A DNA stretch of 64,000 nucleotides from Rhodospirillaceae bacterium (GTDB taxonomy: Bacteria > Pseudomonadota > Alphaproteobacteria > Rhodospirillales > Rhodospirillaceae). The stretch spans positions 124,001 to 188,000 of the forward strand of contig JAVJSV010000012.1 of assembly GCA_040219235.1 (NCBI GenBank). The letters run 5' to 3'. The notes under the pieces were generated by a model. It made no database searches. It had not been told where the DNA came from and was given only the letters and a program-made list of their open reading frames with translations. Shown piece after piece: positions 10,253-20,052 of this stretch; the stretch's first letter is position 1; the number at the start of each line of letters is the position of its first letter. Made by a program: the position numbers and the translations under genes.

Positions 10253-10972
10253 ATGTCTGATACCAACGATAACGCTCAAAACCCAACGTCAGAGGAAGGC
10301 CGACCGCAACAGAACGAAGCGGCTTTTGAGACGACGCCCGCGGCAGCTGCGCCTACTGCCGCCGAAGTTGCTGCAGAAGAGTTTGCTGCAGAAGCTGCTT
10401 CAAATGCTGGCCAGGCTGAAGATGCGCCACCGACACCGGAAGAGCGTATTGCGCAATTGGAAGCGGCCTTGGCCGATGCACACCGCAATCGCTTGCTGGC
10501 CCTTGCCGAGGCTGAAAATGCAGGCAAACGCGCTGACAGACGTATTTCAGACAATGCCAAATATGCAACGTCGAACATTTGTAAGGCGATCCTGCAAGTT
10601 GCTGACAATCTCGAGCGCGCCTTGTTGGCCGCCCCCGAAGAGTTGCGCGTCGGCAATGACGTTGTGAAAAACCTCGCTGTGGGGGTGGAGATGACCGGCA
10701 AGGAACTGGCGACCGTTTTGGAATCACAAAATGTCAAAAAGTTTGTCTCTCTGAACCAGCCGTTTGACGCCAACCTTCATCAAGCCATGCAGGAGGTTGA
10801 GCGCACAGATGTGCCGTCCGGCACGGTCGTGCAAGTGGTCCAGGACGGCTACATGATGGCGGATCGCCTGTTGCGCCCGGCCATGGTTGTGGTTTCAAAA
10901 GGGGGCCCAAAGCGCGCCGCCCCTGAGGATGCTGCTGCGGATAACAACGCAGGCGTTGATAAATCGGTCTAA
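10253..10972 (+). CDS. grpE: GrpE nucleotide exchange factor
   Basis: A 239-aa co-chaperone that releases ADP from DnaK. An acidic, alanine-rich disordered N-terminus (about residues 1-60) leads into the long coiled coil (EERIAQLEAALADAHRNRLLALAEAENAGKR) and the beta domain with NQPFDANLHQAMQEV and VVQDGYMMADRLLRPAMVVVSK. Slightly longer than the E. coli protein (197 aa) because of the acidic extensions at both ends, common in alphaproteobacteria. It follows hrcA by 26 bases and is likely co-transcribed with it; its partners dnaK and dnaJ lie 7 kb downstream. Confidence 0.96.
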   Translation: MSDTNDNAQNPTSEEGRPQQNEAAFETTPAAAAPTAAEVAAEEFAAEAASNAGQAEDAPPTPEERIAQLEAALADAHRNRLLALAEAENAGKRADRRISDNAKYATSNICKAILQVADNLERALLAAPEELRVGNDVVKNLAVGVEMTGKELATVLESQNVKKFVSLNQPFDANLHQAMQEVERTDVPSGTVVQVVQDGYMMADRLLRPAMVVVSKGGPKRAAPEDAAADNNAGVDKSV

Positions 10973-10992: not shown

Positions 10993-11110
10993 TAAGTCAC
11001 GATCGTATTTTTCTGGTTAGCCACGACGTGTGCTTGAACTGCCGGGAACGCCGTGTCACGACTCTGGTATAAGTTTCTAAGTAGGACTTAGGCTATCAGG
11101 GAGTGGCAGT

Positions 11111-12367
11111 ATGCAGATCACACGTGGGCGCGTGGTTATCGGGTTTATCGCAACGTTGGGGTTGATTGCCCCAGTTACGGCTGAGCCACTTGATCAGACG
11201 GTTGGCCAAATCTTAAGGGTCGACCTTAATAGCCTTGCTGAACCGAATCCCGAGTATGAGGGCCGTCCGCGCGAAATGAATTTTTCGCGCCCGCGCGAGC
11301 GCACTCCTGAAGACAAGCCCATTGTGCCGGAAGGATTTCGCGTCGCCCTGTATGCAGAAGGGTTGGTGCATGCCAGAAATATGGCGGTCGCGCCCAACGG
11401 CGATGTCTTTATTGCTGAGCCGCGGGCAAATCGCATTACCGTTCTGAGAGATTCCGATCAAGATGGGGTCGCAGATGAAATCTTCACGTATATTGATAAC
11501 CTCAACATGCCCCATGGCATTGCGTTCATTCAGGACGCGGTCTTAATTGCCGATAAGGTTGGCGTTCGCAAATACCCCTACAGCGCAGACGGAACCGTCA
11601 CCCCGTCCTCTAGCCAATTACTCACGCCGTTGGGCGCGCTGGGCGATCCCGAGACACGTTTTCACTGGTCCCGCAATGTAGCCGTGCATCCAGATGGAAG
11701 CCGTTTTTACGTCGGTGTCGGGTCTGCCAGCAATCTTGATGAAGACCCGGAGCCCTACGCCACCATTCAGGAATTCCCTATGAGCGGCGGGCCGGGCCGG
11801 ACATTTGCATCTGGGATTCGTGTTCCGACCGAAGTCAAATTTTATCCGGGAACGGAAGACCTTTATACTGTTGTCAACGAGCGTGACCGGCAGGGCAATG
11901 AATTGGTGCCGGATTACTTTACGCGGGTGCCAGATGGTGCGTTCTTCGGCTGGCCGTACAGTTATATGGGCTCTAACCCGCAACCGGGTTTTGCCGACCG
12001 GCGCCCGGATTTGGTGGCCGCAGCGATTGCACCGGACGTGCCTTTTCTCTCCCATTCAGCGGCAATTGATCTTGAGTTCTATACCGGCGCACAGTTTCCT
12101 GAGGCCTATCGCGGCGGCGCTTTTGTAACCCTGCACGGATCGTGGAATGCGAGCCAGCCGCGCGGCTACTCGCTGGTGTATGTGCCGTTCAGTGACGGAA
12201 AACCAATTGGTGAGTACCAGGTTTTTGCGGTTGGTTTTTGGAATGGCGACGCTGAAAACAGCCAGGTCTGGGGCCGCCCCGCCGGTGTAGTGATGCTGTC
12301 CGATGGCAGTGTGTTGTTATCCGATGATGTGGGCCAGACGGTGTGGAGAATCACCTATGTGGAATAG
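11111..12367 (+). CDS. Exported sorbosone/glucose dehydrogenase-like beta-propeller protein, copy 1
   Basis: A 418-aa protein with a signal peptide (about residues 1-24, cleavage after VTA) and a six-bladed propeller of the PQQ-dependent sorbosone/soluble glucose dehydrogenase family. Signature stretches: NMAVAPNGDVFIAEP, DSDQDGVAD (calcium-loop-like), MPHGIAF, WSRNVAVHPDGSRFYVGVGS, VVNERD, GWPYSYMGSNPQP, HGSWNASQPRGY and VWGRPAGV. It would oxidise a sugar or alcohol in the periplasm and pass electrons to the respiratory chain. No PQQ synthesis genes are in the window. The gene is followed by a paralog whose start overlaps it by 11 bases. It is the first gene of a six-gene plus-strand unit. 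The cofactor and substrate are inferred from family only. Confidence 0.87.
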   Translation: MQITRGRVVIGFIATLGLIAPVTAEPLDQTVGQILRVDLNSLAEPNPEYEGRPREMNFSRPRERTPEDKPIVPEGFRVALYAEGLVHARNMAVAPNGDVFIAEPRANRITVLRDSDQDGVADEIFTYIDNLNMPHGIAFIQDAVLIADKVGVRKYPYSADGTVTPSSSQLLTPLGALGDPETRFHWSRNVAVHPDGSRFYVGVGSASNLDEDPEPYATIQEFPMSGGPGRTFASGIRVPTEVKFYPGTEDLYTVVNERDRQGNELVPDYFTRVPDGAFFGWPYSYMGSNPQPGFADRRPDLVAAAIAPDVPFLSHSAAIDLEFYTGAQFPEAYRGGAFVTLHGSWNASQPRGYSLVYVPFSDGKPIGEYQVFAVGFWNGDAENSQVWGRPAGVVMLSDGSVLLSDDVGQTVWRITYVE

Positions 12368-13601
12368 GCTCGGTTATTTTTTGGCAATCGGAGTTCTGTT
12401 TGGTACAAATTCTGTAACGGCTCAGGAGTTGTTTGAGCAGGAACCCGGAACCGTTATTTCGATTGATATCAACGCGCTGCCTCAACCCTATTCACCCCCA
12501 AGCCCCGCTAACCCACCACGGACGCTTCCGAAACCGGCCCGTGCCCTGCCGACCACGCTGCCTGGTTTCAGCGTCAACGCTTTTGCCTCTAGCCTCAAAG
12601 ATGCGCGCAACCTTAAAGTGGCTCCCGATGGCACGGTGTTTCTCAGCGAACCCAGAATTGGCCAGATCACACTGTTGCGGGATACCGACAACGATGGCCG
12701 CGCTGATGTTGTGACGGCTTTTGCGGACGGCTTTAGAAACCCCCACGGTATTGCGATCGGCAACGGCTTTATTTTGATCGGTGATCTCAATGGCGTTTGG
12801 CGGCTGCCCTATGCTGAGGGCGACACCAAAGCATCGGTTGACCCTGTGCAGGTTACCAAACGCGGCGCGCTAGGAGATCCTGGCGGGCATTCCACGCGAA
12901 ACGTGGTTCTGCACCCCGACGGGTCGCGCTTTTATGTGGCGATCGGCAGTCGTGGTAATATTGCAGAAGAGCCCGAGCCTCGCGCTACCATCCAAGAGTT
13001 CCAGATCGACGGGTCAGTGCAGCGCACCTTTGCCAGTGGGCTACGCAATCCGGTTGGTATGGCTTTCTATCCCGGCAGTTCGGATCTCTATACTGTTGTC
13101 AATGAGCGCGATGGTCTCCACGACGAGTTGGTGCCTGAGTATATGACCCGTGTGATCGACGGCGGTTTTTACGGCTGGCCTTACAGTTACATGGGGTCAA
13201 ACCCTCAGCCCAACTTTGCGGATAAGCGGCCGGACTTGGTTGAAGCCACCATCGTTCCGGACACGCTGTTCCGGTCGCATTCTGCCCCCATTGGGTTGGT
13301 GTTTTACACCGGCACTCAGTTTCCGGCTGAATATCAGGGCGGTGCCTTCGTGACCCTTCGCGGGTCGTGGAATGCTGCTCAGCCGCGCGGCTATAACGTT
13401 GTGTATGTGCCTGTCGAAGACGGAGTCAGTCAAAATCAATACACGGTGTTTGCCTCCGGTCTTTGGGCCAAAGGTGAGGACAGAGCGGAGGTTTGGGGAC
13501 GGCCAACCGGTATCACCATGACGCCGGAGGGCTCGCTTCTGTTTGCCGATGACGTGAGTCAAACCGTATGGCGGGTAACTTACGACGGCGCAGCACCATG
13601 A
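12357..13601 (+). CDS. Exported sorbosone/glucose dehydrogenase-like beta-propeller protein, copy 2
   Basis: A 414-aa paralog of the preceding protein with its own signal peptide (about 1-23, cleavage near VTA/QE) and the same propeller motifs (NLKVAPDGTVFLSEP, DTDNDGRAD, NPHGIAIG, STRNVVLHPDGSRFYVAIGS, VVNERD, GWPYSYMGSNPQP, VWGRPTGI). I start it at ATG 12357, inside the end of copy 1, because the signal peptide begins there; upstream codons in the same frame belong to an unrelated reading of copy 1. One notable difference: the conserved HGSWN of copy 1 reads RGSWN here. Proline-rich linker around residues 40-60. Its stop overlaps the start of the first ASCH gene (ATGA). Probably a recent duplication with divergence in specificity. 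Confidence 0.85.
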   Translation: MWNRLGYFLAIGVLFGTNSVTAQELFEQEPGTVISIDINALPQPYSPPSPANPPRTLPKPARALPTTLPGFSVNAFASSLKDARNLKVAPDGTVFLSEPRIGQITLLRDTDNDGRADVVTAFADGFRNPHGIAIGNGFILIGDLNGVWRLPYAEGDTKASVDPVQVTKRGALGDPGGHSTRNVVLHPDGSRFYVAIGSRGNIAEEPEPRATIQEFQIDGSVQRTFASGLRNPVGMAFYPGSSDLYTVVNERDGLHDELVPEYMTRVIDGGFYGWPYSYMGSNPQPNFADKRPDLVEATIVPDTLFRSHSAPIGLVFYTGTQFPAEYQGGAFVTLRGSWNAAQPRGYNVVYVPVEDGVSQNQYTVFASGLWAKGEDRAEVWGRPTGITMTPEGSLLFADDVSQTVWRVTYDGAAP

Positions 13602-14065
13602 AAAAATCACCCACCACAGACTCATTTTGGGCTCAGGCGCAGACAACGGGTGTGGTTTCAGGTGATGACTATTGGGTGCGCCGGATCGGCGCCAATAAAT
13701 TTGTCGTCGACAGTATTTTGTCGCTTGTTTTGGACGGTGAGAAATGCGGCACATTCGGCTTGAAGTGGCTGCACGAGCGCCAGCCTGAAACCGCGCCCGT
13801 CTTAAATGGCTATGCCGTATTGGTTAATATGGATGAAGCCCCAAAGGCCATTATCAAAACAACAAAGATCACACCTGTTGCCTATAAGGATATCACAGAG
13901 GAACATCTGGTGATCGAAGGGCCTGGTGCCCGCGCCCTTGACCGGTGGCGCGATATTCACTGGCCCTATTGGCAAGAATTATTAAAGCCCTATGACCTTC
14001 AACCAACCCAAGAGATGCTGGTGATGGTTGAACACTTCGATTTGGTCTTTCCAAAACGGGCCTAG
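13598..14065 (+). CDS. ASCH-domain protein, copy 1 (cytoplasmic)
   Basis: A 155-aa protein consisting essentially of one ASCH domain (FW at 10-11, WVRRIG at 26-31, GEKCGTF at 47-53, AIIKTT at 84-89, ITEEHLVIEG at 99-108, WRDIHWPYW). ASCH is a PUA-like fold; the best-known member, E. coli YqfB, is an N4-acetylcytidine amidohydrolase with a Lys-Thr-Glu catalytic set. By eye, the equivalents Lys49, Thr52 and Glu107 are all present, so a deacetylase-type activity on a modified nucleoside is possible but unproven. Start ATG 13598 overlaps the preceding stop (ATGA), implying coupling. A GNAT gene begins 4 bases after its stop. Confidence 0.78.
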   Translation: MKKSPTTDSFWAQAQTTGVVSGDDYWVRRIGANKFVVDSILSLVLDGEKCGTFGLKWLHERQPETAPVLNGYAVLVNMDEAPKAIIKTTKITPVAYKDITEEHLVIEGPGARALDRWRDIHWPYWQELLKPYDLQPTQEMLVMVEHFDLVFPKRA

Positions 14066-14069
14066 TTCA

Positions 14070-14933
14070 ATGCCGACTCTCAGGGCTTTAACCCCAGACG
14101 ATACTCAAGTTTTGCACGTGTTCCTGGAACGGCATCGCCAATCCTCGATGTTGTTGCGCTCCAATGTGGTGCATGGCGGCTTGGTGTACGCCGGCCTACA
14201 CCACCAGGGTCACTATGCCGGGTCATTTGAGGGTGATGTTTTAACGGATGTTGCGGCCCACTATTGGAACGGTAACGTTATTCTGCAAGCGCCTAAGCGG
14301 CCTTTAGAGGTCGCGCAGGCTGTGGTTAAAAATTCCGGGCGGGCCGTGAATGGGGTTCTAGGTCCCTGGTTCCAGGTTCAGGCGGTCGAACCCCATCTTG
14401 ATCTTGATCGCAGCCGGCTGGGTAAGATTGTACCGGAGCATCTCTACGCGTTGCAGCTCTCAGATCTCAAAGTGCCGTCTCAACTCGCGTCAGGGAATGT
14501 TCGCCACCGATTGGCGCATAAAGATGATTTGCCTACGCTGGTGGCGTGGCGGCGAATATATGATCGCATCACTATGGGATTTCCAGAACACGCCATAAGC
14601 GACATGCGAAATGCAGACATGCTTGGTCTTATGATTGAAGATCAACGTCTTTGGGTTCTCGTGAAAGACGGCATGCTGGTCAGCATGACCGGTTTCAACG
14701 CCATACTGCCAGATACGGTCCAGGTGGGAGGCGTATTCACCCCTGAACAGCATCGTGGGCATGGTTATGCGCGATCAGCGGTCGCGGCCTCGCTGCTCGA
14801 TGCGCGAGACGCTGGGGCAACAGAAGCATTATTATTTACGGAAATGGATAACTATCCAGCACAGAAAGCTTATGAAGCACTCGGTTTCGTAAACGTTGGC
14901 GACTACGGTATGATTGTTCTTGATCCATGCTAA
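14070..14933 (+). CDS. GNAT-family N-acetyltransferase
   Basis: A 287-aa protein with a C-terminal GNAT domain: the acetyl-CoA pyrophosphate loop is QHRGHGYA (motif A, Q/RxxGxG/A) after the VGGVFT strand, and the later motif B region is YPAQKAYEALGF. The first 150 residues form a divergent domain, possibly a second degenerate GNAT fold as in other two-domain members. I start at ATG 14070, 4 bases after the ASCH copy 1 stop; an upstream in-frame ATG (14028) lies inside that gene and adds nothing recognisable. Lying between ASCH genes, it might acetylate the same molecule or pathway the ASCH proteins act on; that is a guess from context. Confidence 0.82.
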   Translation: MPTLRALTPDDTQVLHVFLERHRQSSMLLRSNVVHGGLVYAGLHHQGHYAGSFEGDVLTDVAAHYWNGNVILQAPKRPLEVAQAVVKNSGRAVNGVLGPWFQVQAVEPHLDLDRSRLGKIVPEHLYALQLSDLKVPSQLASGNVRHRLAHKDDLPTLVAWRRIYDRITMGFPEHAISDMRNADMLGLMIEDQRLWVLVKDGMLVSMTGFNAILPDTVQVGGVFTPEQHRGHGYARSAVAASLLDARDAGATEALLFTEMDNYPAQKAYEALGFVNVGDYGMIVLDPC

Positions 14934-14959
14934 AATTTGGAGCCGCAAAGGAGAATTAA

Positions 14960-15466
14960 ATGACTCGAAGCATTGTTATGGGCGGCGGTGGTGCGGCGAC
15001 ACCGGACCACGCAAAACTAGACCCCTTCTGGGAAGACGTAAAAGGTACTGTGCCTGGTTTAGGCGAAGATCATCAAGTGCGGTCTCTTGGGATTGATGAA
15101 GAAACAACGGGTATGATCTTGGAGTTCATTAAAGCAAAAACCAAGGTTGCAACGTTCAGTTTGCCTTGGGTTATGGCTGCTGAAAAGCACCCTGAAACAA
15201 AACCCGGAACGCCCGTTATCCTCACAGGATACGATGGAACACCGCGCGCTGTCGTGCGCATCACCAGTATTCGCGAAACGACTTTTGGTGAGATTGGGCC
15301 GGAAGAAACCAAGCTAGATGGTCCGCCCGTGCAAGACCCTGACGTTTGGTTGCCGCTGCATCGGGACTATTGGAACGGCTTGCTATCGCAGTATGGAAAA
15401 AAATGTTCAGACGATATGCCCGTCTTGGTCGAGCCTTTTGAACTCTTGTATTTTAAAGAGGTATGA
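14960..15466 (+). CDS. ASCH-domain protein, copy 2 (cytoplasmic)
   Basis: A 168-aa paralog of ASCH copy 1 with a glycine-rich N-terminal tail (MGGGGAA) before the domain. Shared landmarks: FW at 23-24, VRSLG at 40-44, KVATFSLPW at 62-70, GTPRAVVRIT at 93-102, LDGPP at 119-123 and W-x3-H-x2-YW near the end. Lys62 and Thr65 match the YqfB-type catalytic residues, but the third position is Asp120 instead of Glu. A good ribosome site (AAAGGAG) precedes ATG 14960, which lies 26 bases after the GNAT stop. The stop overlaps the start of the third ASCH gene by 4 bases. Biochemical role unknown. Confidence 0.75.
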   Translation: MTRSIVMGGGGAATPDHAKLDPFWEDVKGTVPGLGEDHQVRSLGIDEETTGMILEFIKAKTKVATFSLPWVMAAEKHPETKPGTPVILTGYDGTPRAVVRITSIRETTFGEIGPEETKLDGPPVQDPDVWLPLHRDYWNGLLSQYGKKCSDDMPVLVEPFELLYFKEV

Positions 15467-15981
15467 ACATGCTGCACATTGTTGGAATATTCTTGATTAT
15501 CTTATTTCCGAGTATCGCTTCTGCGACATCGGTCAATGAATTTTGGCAAGCGTGCTTGCCTGAAATTTCGACGCCCCCAGAAGACGGCTACTATCGCGTC
15601 CGCTCAATCGGCAGCACACCGGAGGCGACGGAAACCATCACCAAACTCATTCTTGCCGGTGATAAAACTGGTACGTTTACGTCTCCATGGATGTATGAAG
15701 GTGACCAGTCCATCACACCTGTGATCAGTGGTTATTCAGTCCTGACAGATTCTACTGGTACACCCCGTGCCGTGCTGCGCACAACGTCTTTGCTTACGCT
15801 GCCGTTCAATCAGATCACCGAAAAAGAAACAGCTTTGGATGGTCCGGCTATACGCTCCCTAGATGTCTGGCAGCCGATACATGTTCGGTTCTTCACCAGT
15901 GAACTTGCGACGCGCGGCAAAGCTTTTGTGGAAGACATGCCGGTGAGTGTCGAAAAATTTGAGGTGGTGTGCACGGGTTAA
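15463..15981 (+). CDS. ASCH-domain protein, copy 3, with signal peptide (exported)
   Basis: A 172-aa ASCH paralog preceded by a hydrophobic segment IVGIFLIILFP (residues 6-16) and a consensus signal peptidase site near ASA/TS (about residue 21). The n-region lacks Lys or Arg, so export is likely but not certain. Domain landmarks: FW at 27-28, RVRSIG at 45-50, GDKTGTF at 66-72 with Lys68 and Thr71, GTPRAVLRTT at 99-108 and LDGPA at 125-129 with Asp126 in place of the YqfB Glu. It overlaps copy 2 by 4 bases (ATGA); Met3 (15469) is an alternative start. An exported ASCH domain is unusual because characterised members act on RNA or nucleosides in the cytoplasm. Confidence 0.75.
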   Translation: MNMLHIVGIFLIILFPSIASATSVNEFWQACLPEISTPPEDGYYRVRSIGSTPEATETITKLILAGDKTGTFTSPWMYEGDQSITPVISGYSVLTDSTGTPRAVLRTTSLLTLPFNQITEKETALDGPAIRSLDVWQPIHVRFFTSELATRGKAFVEDMPVSVEKFEVVCTG

Positions 15982-17060: not shown

Positions 17061-17900
17061 TTATTGATTAGGGGCGCGCTGTTTCTCGATGTCTTCCGGG
17101 CTATATCCTTTCGATAGCCACAGACGGTTGTAGTCGTCTTCCGTGCCTCTAAAAATTTCATCTAAATAGCGGGGCGCGATACCAAAGCAGTCCAGGTCTT
17201 CACTGGTTGTGGTTTTGCAAAGCGTTGTTAGAAAGCCGCCGTTCTCTAATGCCCGCACGAGGCGTGCTACGATGGCTTGTTTATACCACCGCGCAGATTT
17301 TGGCCGGCAGAGATAGAGTTTTCTGTATCCCACCAAAATTGGAGTGAAGCGTTCTTTATAGCGCTCAAGGTAGCGCAACGCAGACCAGGTCACCTGAGGA
17401 TATTCAGGCGCAAAAAAGTCATCAAGAACAACAATGCCATCGTCAGACAACGCCAAATGAGACAGCTCAAGATCGGCCTCAACGGCGGGGCCGGTGTGTT
17501 CGCCATCAATATGGATCCACCGTGCACTGCCACGGTCTAAATCTATGTCTGACAAGGCGAGTAAACTGGATCTTGCTTCAATCAAATTAACGGCCAAATT
17601 GACCGCGTTCTTGGTGTCCATCCCGGCTTTGTTTAGGGATTCCAGAATGTGATCCGTCTGAAGTTTTATATCGATCAACGCTAGCTTTTCACCGGCATCC
17701 GGGGCCAGAAAGGCCGCCAGAATGGCGGCAGATTTGCCCCTGAAAACCCCGATTTCCATAAGATGCCCGGGCACTTTAAAATCAATCTGGGTGCGCAGTA
17801 AGGTGGCCCAAATCCAGAAGGTTTCCATCGGGCACCACCCGGACAGAGCGGGGAACTGATCTGCGAGGTGTGCGATTCGGGCGTCCAGTTGGTTGGTCAT
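17061..17900 (-). CDS. Class I SAM-dependent methyltransferase (Methyltransf_24 / TylF-like)
   Basis: A 279-aa protein with a Rossmann methyltransferase core: SAM-binding loop MEIGVFRGKSAA (about residues 66-77), then an acidic strand RWIHIDGEHTG and ALSDDGIVVLDDFF, features of the cephalosporin hydroxylase/macrocin O-methyltransferase-like family (metal-dependent sugar O-methyltransferases). I start at ATG 17900, preceded by GGAAACAG; the frame extends 26 codons further with no recognisable content. Likely acts on a sugar or polysaccharide; the neighbours (alkB, RidA-like) do not point to the substrate. The gene is divergent from dnaK and begins 241 bases from the dnaK start. Confidence 0.8.
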   Translation of the reverse strand: MTNQLDARIAHLADQFPALSGWCPMETFWIWATLLRTQIDFKVPGHLMEIGVFRGKSAAILAAFLAPDAGEKLALIDIKLQTDHILESLNKAGMDTKNAVNLAVNLIEARSSLLALSDIDLDRGSARWIHIDGEHTGPAVEADLELSHLALSDDGIVVLDDFFAPEYPQVTWSALRYLERYKERFTPILVGYRKLYLCRPKSARWYKQAIVARLVRALENGGFLTTLCKTTTSEDLDCFGIAPRYLDEIFRGTEDDYNRLWLSKGYSPEDIEKQRAPNQ

Positions 17901-18141: not shown

Positions 18142-20052
18142 ATGGGTAAAGTTATTGGTATTGACCTCGGGACAACCAACTCCTGCGTCGCCGTTATGGA
18201 CGGCTCTGACCCCCGGGTGATTGAAAACGCTGAGGGTGTGCGCACCACACCATCGATGGTCGCGTTCACGGAATCAGGAGAGCGCCTTGTTGGGCAGCCG
18301 GCCAAGCGCCAGGCTGTTACCAACCCTGAGAATACCCTTTTTGCTATTAAGCGACTGATCGGTCGTCGTTTTGATGATCCCACCGTTAAAAAAGACCAGG
18401 CCCTGGTCCCTTATTCCATTATCAAGGGTGAAAACGGCGATGCCTGGGTTTCCGCTGGAAAAGAGAAGTATGCGCCTTCTCAGGTTTCAGCCTTTATTTT
18501 GCAAAAAATGAAAGAAACCGCTGAGAGCTATCTTGGCGAATCTGTAACTGAAGCCGTGATTACGGTCCCAGCCTATTTTAATGATAGCCAACGTCAGGCC
18601 ACTAAAGATGCGGGTAAAATTGCTGGCCTAGATGTTCTACGCATTATCAACGAGCCGACTGCCGCTGCCTTAGCCTATGGAATGGACAAGGAAGCTTCGG
18701 GCATCATCGCGGTTTATGACCTTGGTGGCGGTACGTTTGACGTATCTGTTTTGGAAATCGGCGATGGCGTCTTTGAAGTTAAATCAACCAACGGCGATAC
18801 ATTCCTCGGTGGTGAAGACTTTGATGCCCGGATCATTGAGTACCTTGCAGAAGAGTTCAAAAAAGAAAACGGTATAGATCTCCGCAAGGACAAATTGGCG
18901 CTGCAACGTCTTAAAGAAGGCGCTGAAAAGGCTAAAATCGAACTCTCCAGTTCGGGTCAAACAGAAGTCAACCTGCCGTTCATCACTGCAGATGCCTCTG
19001 GACCTCAGCACTTAAATATCAAGCTCACCCGGGCGAAGTACGAAGCCCTGGTTGATGACCTGGTTCAGCGGACCATTGAGCCCTGTAAGAAAGCTCTTAA
19101 AGATGCTGGCCTTAAGCCAAACGAGATCAATGAGGTGATCCTGGTCGGTGGTATGACCCGCATGCCCAAGGTTCAGGCCGCAGTGAAAGAGTTCTTTGGT
19201 CGCGAACCCCATAAGGGTGTTAACCCCGACGAAGTTGTTGCTCTTGGCGCCGCCATTCAAGCGGGTGTTCTTAAGGGTGACGTTAAAGACGTCCTACTGC
19301 TTGATGTGACGCCGTTGTCGCTCGGCATCGAAACGCTTGGTGGTGTGTTCACGCGTTTGATCGATCGCAACACCACGGTGCCAACACGAAAGAGCCAGAC
19401 ATTCTCGACGGCAGAAGACAATCAGCAGGCTGTGACCATTCGCGTGTTCCAAGGGGAGCGCGAGATGGCGTCAGACAACAAACTACTGGGTCAGTTTGAT
19501 CTTATGGGAATTCCGCCGTCACCGCGCGGTGTACCTCAGATTGAGGTCACATTCGATATTGATGCCAACGGCTTGGTCAACGTCTCAGCTAAAGATAAAG
19601 CCACGGGCAAAGAGCAGCAGATTCGCATTCAAGCCTCAGGTGGCTTGTCAGACAGCGATATTGATCAGATGGTCAAAGATGCTGAAATGCACGCGGATGA
19701 AGATAAAAAGAAACGCGAGTCTGTTGATGCTCGCAACCAAGCAGATGGTCTGATTCACTCAACAGAAAAGACTCTGAAAGAACACGGAGACAAAGTTGAC
19801 GCGTCTGACAAGGGTGAAATTGAAACAGCCCTCCAAGCCTTGAAAGACTCGCTCGACTCAGACGATGTGGAAGACATCAAAGCCAAAACAGAAGCCTTGA
19901 TGCAGGCATCTATGAAACTTGGTCAGGCCATGTATGAAAGTGAACAAGCCGCAGCCGGCGAAGACGGTGGCGATGGCGGCGATGCTTCACCGGACGATGC
20001 GGAAATTGTCGATGCAGACTTTGAAGAAGTCGACGACAAAGACAAAAGCTGA
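18142..20052 (+). CDS. dnaK: Molecular chaperone DnaK (Hsp70)
   Basis: A 636-aa Hsp70 of standard length. ATPase domain begins [21 protein letters not shown]; phosphate loop [12 protein letters not shown]; adenosine-binding [12 protein letters not shown]; linker [19 protein letters not shown]; substrate-binding domain and lid follow, ending in the acidic tail ([13 protein letters not shown]) carrying the conserved EEVD-like terminus of bacterial DnaK. The ribosome site AAGGA lies 8 bases before ATG. It works with DnaJ (next gene) and GrpE (10253). A promoter with heat-shock character and a repeat-rich leader precede it. Confidence 0.99.

Follow-up and report, generated by a model that had tools for sequence, protein, structure and literature searches.

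Why are two exported dehydrogenases, three ASCH proteins and a GNAT acetyltransferase packed together between grpE and dnaK? The question is posed by a stretch of 64,000 nucleotides from a Rhodospirillaceae bacterium, referred to below as the window. The answer that we tentatively prefer, at slightly less than an even chance, is that the six genes form a vertically inherited accessory operon at the grpE-dnaK position, in which periplasmic PQQ-dependent oxidation would be accompanied by ligand binding or hydrolysis by the ASCH proteins, and not an N4-acetylcytidine cycle. Two new points are the soundest: ASCH3 is predicted to be exported and has a cysteine pair, and PQQ is apparently used without being made.

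Organization of the locus

All six genes are on the + strand. DH1 (11111-12367, 418 aa) encodes an exported, AA12/GSDH-like six-bladed beta-propeller and DH2 (12357-13601, 414 aa) its exported paralog. They are followed by ASCH1 (13598-14065, 155 aa), which has no signal sequence, by the GNAT acetyltransferase (14070-14933, 287 aa), which is tandem-GNAT-like with an additional N-terminal domain, by ASCH2 (14960-15466, 168 aa), also without a signal sequence, and by ASCH3 (15463-15981, 172 aa), where a Sec-type signal (approximately residues 1-22) precedes an ASCH domain containing Cys31 and Cys170. From DH1 to ASCH3 the junctions are, in order, an 11-base overlap, a 4-base overlap (ATGA), a 4-base gap, a 26-base gap and a 4-base overlap (ATGA). 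The ASCH domain (Pfam PF04266) scores above the cut-off in ASCH1, ASCH2 and ASCH3 (50.6, 34.7 and 58.3 bits), and a search of the window genome found no other ASCH genes. These genes and their five junctions had been described in a first-pass annotation of the window, with which the open reading frames, coordinates and Pfam matches all agree (DH1 being below the GSDH cut-off), and the tight same-strand packing backs its proposal of a single operon by sequence criteria.

The unit is flanked by hrcA-grpE on the left and by dnaK-dnaJ on the right, so that grpE (10253-10972, + strand) and dnaK (18142-20052, + strand) form the borders of a variable locus. Between the unit and dnaK lie a RidA-like, an AlkB-like and a methyltransferase gene on the - strand. 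Both this grpE/dnaK setting and the Sec-type signal of ASCH3 had been overlooked earlier.

Exported dehydrogenases and the supply of PQQ

DH1 and DH2 are 52% identical and both match DUF7133 in Pfam, while GSDH (PF07995, cut-off 25 bits) gives 40 bits for DH2 and 18.5 bits for DH1. A profile of the dehydrogenases of this locus matches the AA12 enzyme CcPDH (6jt5) with E=1.7e-21, and the nine PQQ-contacting residues of CcPDH (PMC6881789) were used as the reference for mapping the PQQ pocket. Each protein keeps eight of the nine. In DH1, the equivalent of Asn431 is Val; in DH2, the equivalent of His560 is Arg and the catalytic His178 is kept. Most dehydrogenases of the locus have retained all nine contacts. 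The catalytic His does not vary across 16 aligned proteins and 80 more, and the Arg430 equivalent is likewise invariant in 80 named relatives. The assignment of DH1 and DH2 as exported PQQ-type dehydrogenases is supported by their sequences. Periplasmic sugar oxidation had been proposed earlier; the export of the two proteins, their pocket (8/9) and the catalytic His stand, whereas the oxidation itself is something that we still infer. With PQQ taken from the environment, the two enzymes would oxidize a sugar or an aldehyde in the periplasm.

The source of the cofactor was examined through pqqE. No pqqE above the cut-off was found in the window genome, which is 99.85% complete, or in any genome with a dehydrogenase at grpE-dnaK; five other genomes of the family have a pqqE of more than 500 bits. 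As further quinoproteins are present (PF01011, in 7 of the 7 genomes of the genus) and pqqE is absent, the genus probably obtains PQQ by scavenging. Using PQQ without making it is common and can depend on import (PMC12124388). The TonB receptors beside the quinoproteins of the window genome were considered as PqqU orthologs and rejected, as their identity is 22-25% and key PQQ residues are not retained; no PQQ importer was identified among them. The locus marks a lineage that apparently uses PQQ, each genome encoding several quinoproteins, while lacking the biosynthetic genes.

The ASCH subfamily and the acetylation cycle

Pairwise identity among ASCH1, ASCH2 and ASCH3 is about 31%. They belong to a clade of 49 rows, drawn from the window family and one other, which stands apart from ordinary EGEGD-type ASCH proteins with 100/100 support and has EGP or DGP in place of the EGEGD motif of sampled ordinary YhfF/DUF984 members. 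Judged by their sequences, the three are anciently diverged paralogs of a lineage-specific YhfF-type ASCH subfamily.

The first-pass annotation had placed them in an acetylation/deacetylation or nucleoside cycle linked to periplasmic oxidation, with the GNAT acetylating and the ASCH proteins deacetylating a nucleoside-like ligand. A residue-by-residue comparison with YqfB, an N4-acetylcytidine amidohydrolase, is in part favorable to such a cycle. In the alignment, Lys49, Thr52 and Glu107 of ASCH1 take the positions of Lys21, Thr24 and Glu74 of YqfB. The same triad positions are filled by Lys68, Thr71 and Asp126 in ASCH3 and by Lys, Thr and Asp in ASCH2, and hence ASCH1 alone of the window copies has a true Glu. 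Across the clade the Lys21 and Thr24 columns are almost invariant, and the Glu74 column contains Glu or Asp, which rules out a loss of the catalytic Glu. The GNAT, too, is present, with a PF00583 match of 44.6 bits, the RGxGYAR acetyl-CoA motif and the GNAT fold. However, Arg26, which is essential in YqfB (oxyanion hole) and whose loss is inactivating (PMC6972931), is missing from all three proteins: its column is occupied by Gly, Ser or Thr, with Gly in ASCH1. Furthermore, ASCH3 is predicted to be extracytoplasmic, and the GNAT, for which similarity searches returned matches to general GNATs only, is an inconstant, generic, optional and loosely coupled member of the locus. Because Arg26 is missing and the GNAT is inconstant, we reject the acetyl-cycle model, which we regard as very unlikely. 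In the accessory operon that we prefer, the ASCH proteins might instead bind or hydrolyze a small heterocyclic or amide/lactone-like ligand by means of the Lys-x-x-Thr and acidic pocket.

A predicted periplasmic ASCH protein

To our knowledge, the ASCH/PUA-like fold has so far been an intracellular nucleic-acid or nucleoside domain, and our literature search found no paper on a secreted ASCH. Signal sequences of the ASCH3 branch (10 rows, support 94/93) were assessed by eye; they are hydrophobic and have mostly AxA-type ends, and by the same reading the ASCH3-type copy of genome G009 appears to be membrane-anchored. The Cys31/Cys170 pair is present in 9 of the 9 full-length members of the branch and in none of the other ASCH proteins examined, and this co-conservation suggests a Cys31-Cys170 disulfide. 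Given the Sec-type signal and the clade-restricted cysteine pair, ASCH3 is probably a periplasmic, disulfide-bonded ASCH. Its AlphaFold2 model has a pLDDT of 89, which is low only near the N-terminus, and the best PDB matches of this model are the DUF984-type ASCH proteins 3s9x and 1t62. ASCH3 might be pictured as working with the dehydrogenases in the periplasm, with ASCH1 and ASCH2 perhaps acting in the cytoplasm.

A more specific proposal is that a branch of the ASCH/PUA fold has relocated to the periplasm, where, stabilized by a disulfide, it serves PQQ dehydrogenases as an accessory and binds PQQ or the dehydrogenase product, in organisms that use PQQ and do not make it. The exported ASCH3 could, for example, bind or deliver PQQ in a PqqT-like role. 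Heterocycles are ligands of ASCH/PUA pockets, and the PQQ users considered here have no pqqE. ASCH3-type genes adjoin two kinds of PQQ enzyme, namely the six-bladed dehydrogenases and, in genome G029, an eight-bladed PF01011 quinoprotein (E=6e-212), 16 bases after which a standalone exported ASCH3-type gene begins. A precedent is PqqT itself, a periplasmic PQQ-binding protein in Methylobacterium (PMC12124388). However, the G029 quinoprotein is the single such neighbor outside grpE-dnaK, two ASCH copies of genus g6 adjoin a methyltransferase, the exported ASCH is missing from most dehydrogenase loci, and ASCH goes unmentioned in a PQQ chemical-proteomics paper. Taken together, these points make the proposal improbable. 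Were it true, the fold would gain a new place of action, in a branch that is exported, carries a cysteine pair and is found next to periplasmic quinoproteins, and its ligand would become a testable question.

Conservation of the locus among relatives

The locus was followed through 73 genomes of the family, including Roseospirillum parvum and marine 'Rhodospirillaceae' MAGs, and the order grpE-DH-(ASCH)n-(GNAT)-alkB-dnaK was found repeatedly in several genera. Dehydrogenases of the window type are present in 38 of the 73 genomes, a few of which have them solely elsewhere, and loci at grpE-dnaK with a dehydrogenase and no ASCH are common. The ASCH subfamily occurs in 18 genomes, all of which have a copy at grpE-dnaK. 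In 17 of these the ASCH adjoins a dehydrogenase and is 3' of it on the same strand, the two genes mostly overlapping by 1 base or standing no more than 14 bases apart, and in several genomes the dehydrogenase stop codon and the ASCH start codon have one base in common; the remaining genome, G028, has an ASCH without a dehydrogenase. The ASCH copy number differs between genomes; genus g2 has a fusion protein of about 350 aa with two ASCH domains, and g17 a similar one. The loci of G013 and G053 have a GNAT and no ASCH, and at several ASCH loci there is no GNAT. On the tree of neighboring genes, the minimum number of state changes is 3 for ASCH, 6 for GNAT and 1 for the exported ASCH3. Within the family, the grpE-dnaK position is conserved and the genes that it contains vary. 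The dehydrogenase-only loci, the ASCH-only locus of G028 and the changes in GNAT (at least six) and ASCH (at least three) show that the members of the locus are no obligate partners.

Such a pattern could result from positional co-inheritance only, with unrelated genes collected at a stable chaperone region and the dehydrogenases, ASCH proteins and GNAT doing separate jobs. Since grpE, alkB and dnaK, which are functionally unrelated, are linked equally stably, synteny alone is little proof of a common function. The many relatives with dehydrogenase-only loci, the ASCH-only genome, the two loci with GNAT and no ASCH, and an ASCH state that changes merely three times on the locus tree all favor this explanation. 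The first-pass annotation had also held that ASCH genes occurring mostly without dehydrogenases would speak against a link. At the locus they do not so occur (17 of 18 beside a dehydrogenase), but none of the four family copies outside grpE-dnaK is beside a dehydrogenase of the window family, and ASCH proteins sampled in other families of the class have no dehydrogenase of the window type nearby. Conversely, among the dehydrogenase loci of named genomes, 77 of 80 are without such an ASCH within 8 kb, and the other three are all at grpE-dnaK. What co-inheritance explains less well is the persistence of overlapping or nearly overlapping DH-ASCH junctions across genera and differing ASCH paralogs, and the exported ASCH3-type gene that closely follows a different PQQ quinoprotein in G029. 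A functional tie between the ASCH proteins and the dehydrogenases is plausible; co-inheritance alone is nearly as likely, a serious possibility that itself falls short of an even chance. In the preferred reading of a vertically inherited accessory operon, the six genes would probably be co-transcribed.

An upstream element and purifying constraint

A promoter-like element of 34 bases, GCTTGAACTG-N9-CCGTG-N2-ACGAYTCT, lies between grpE and DH1 (11032-11065, + strand) and is conserved within a fast-changing intergenic stretch. It occurs as a single copy upstream of DH1 in seven members of the genus and in G009, which are exactly the eight genomes with the window version of the locus. The remaining 65 genomes of the family contain none, and a reversed control pattern gave 2 stray matches. 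The element may resemble an ECF-type promoter (GAAC-N16-CGAC); a scan for sigma-70 promoters found no site on the + strand.

Across the genes of the unit pN/pS is 0.17-0.37, like that of RidA and AlkB and above that of dnaK, and the unit is under purifying constraint. As synonymous sites are near saturation, dN/dS values are rough. This constraint and the recurrence of a dehydrogenase followed by ASCH genes in 17 genomes indicate that the arrangement did not arise by chance.

Comparison with known systems

Operons of the (PIN)-GNAT-EVE type frequently contain an ASCH gene (PMC7641849), and ZmASCH is a nuclease that cuts single-stranded RNA (PMC5615036). By analogy, the ASCH proteins of the window could bind or cut RNA, or form a toxin-antitoxin-like module with the GNAT. 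GNAT and ASCH do share one operon here; however, none of the six proteins has an EVE, PIN or HTH domain, and the structural likeness of ASCH3 to ZmASCH, whose ribonuclease residues are Tyr47, Lys53 and Ser128, is weak (TM <=0.50). An exported ASCH is also at odds with an intracellular RNA target, and PADLOC gave no match at the locus, on which ground a defense system was rejected. We consider an RNA-directed role extremely unlikely.

Escherichia coli YqfB has the ASCH fold (9kyf, TMt 0.71) and shares with the window proteins Lys21, Thr24 and, as Glu or Asp, Glu74. It differs in its length (103 aa compared to 155-172 aa), in the essential Arg26 and in the predicted export of ASCH3. The YhfF/DUF984-type ASCH proteins (3s9x, 1t62) agree with the window proteins in fold and length (TM values reach 0.85; profile E=8.9e-28), whereas the window clade has E/D-G-P, lineage-specific tandem copies and one branch with an export signal and a cysteine pair.

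As for the dehydrogenases, E. coli YliI, a soluble aldose sugar dehydrogenase (2g8s), is likewise a periplasmic six-bladed quinoprotein in an organism that does not make PQQ, but it is farther from them in sequence (profile E=4.7e-5) than AA12. The AA12 pyranose dehydrogenase of Coprinopsis cinerea (6jt5) has equivalents here for its catalytic His363 and for Arg273, Arg430, Arg621, His539, Trp563 and Asn564; unlike that enzyme, DH1 and DH2 have no cytochrome domain.

At the grpE-dnaK interval of three relatives, two ASCH domains are fused in a single protein (L014:8697-9749, L020:8864-9904 and L018:3526-4536). The ASCH genes and the shortened dnaK of locus L010 in genome G003 contain apparent frameshifts, which are more likely to be assembly errors than signs of pseudogenes. 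On the minus strand of the window, the AlkB-like ORF shares about 100 bases (17061-17161) with the methyltransferase ORF; its start was probably placed too far upstream.

Predicted-exported ASCH3-type genes lie immediately 3' of a gene for a ~385-aa methyltransferase at L026:8892-10594 and L039:7667-9276. SBP_bac_5 genes occur near both pairs, and a TonB receptor is also found near that of L026.

Outside grpE-dnaK, an eight-bladed PQQ quinoprotein gene of G029 (PF01011 match, E=6e-212) is followed 16 bases downstream by a predicted-exported ASCH3-type gene (L021:6894-9377); the PQQ synthesis gene pqqE was not found in this genome. The window genome is also without pqqE, yet it encodes three PF01011-type quinoproteins (L140:5597-7585, L141:5339-7369 and L142:4084-6150). 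TonB-dependent receptor genes, whose products lack the key PQQ residues of PqqU, precede two of the three on the same strand.
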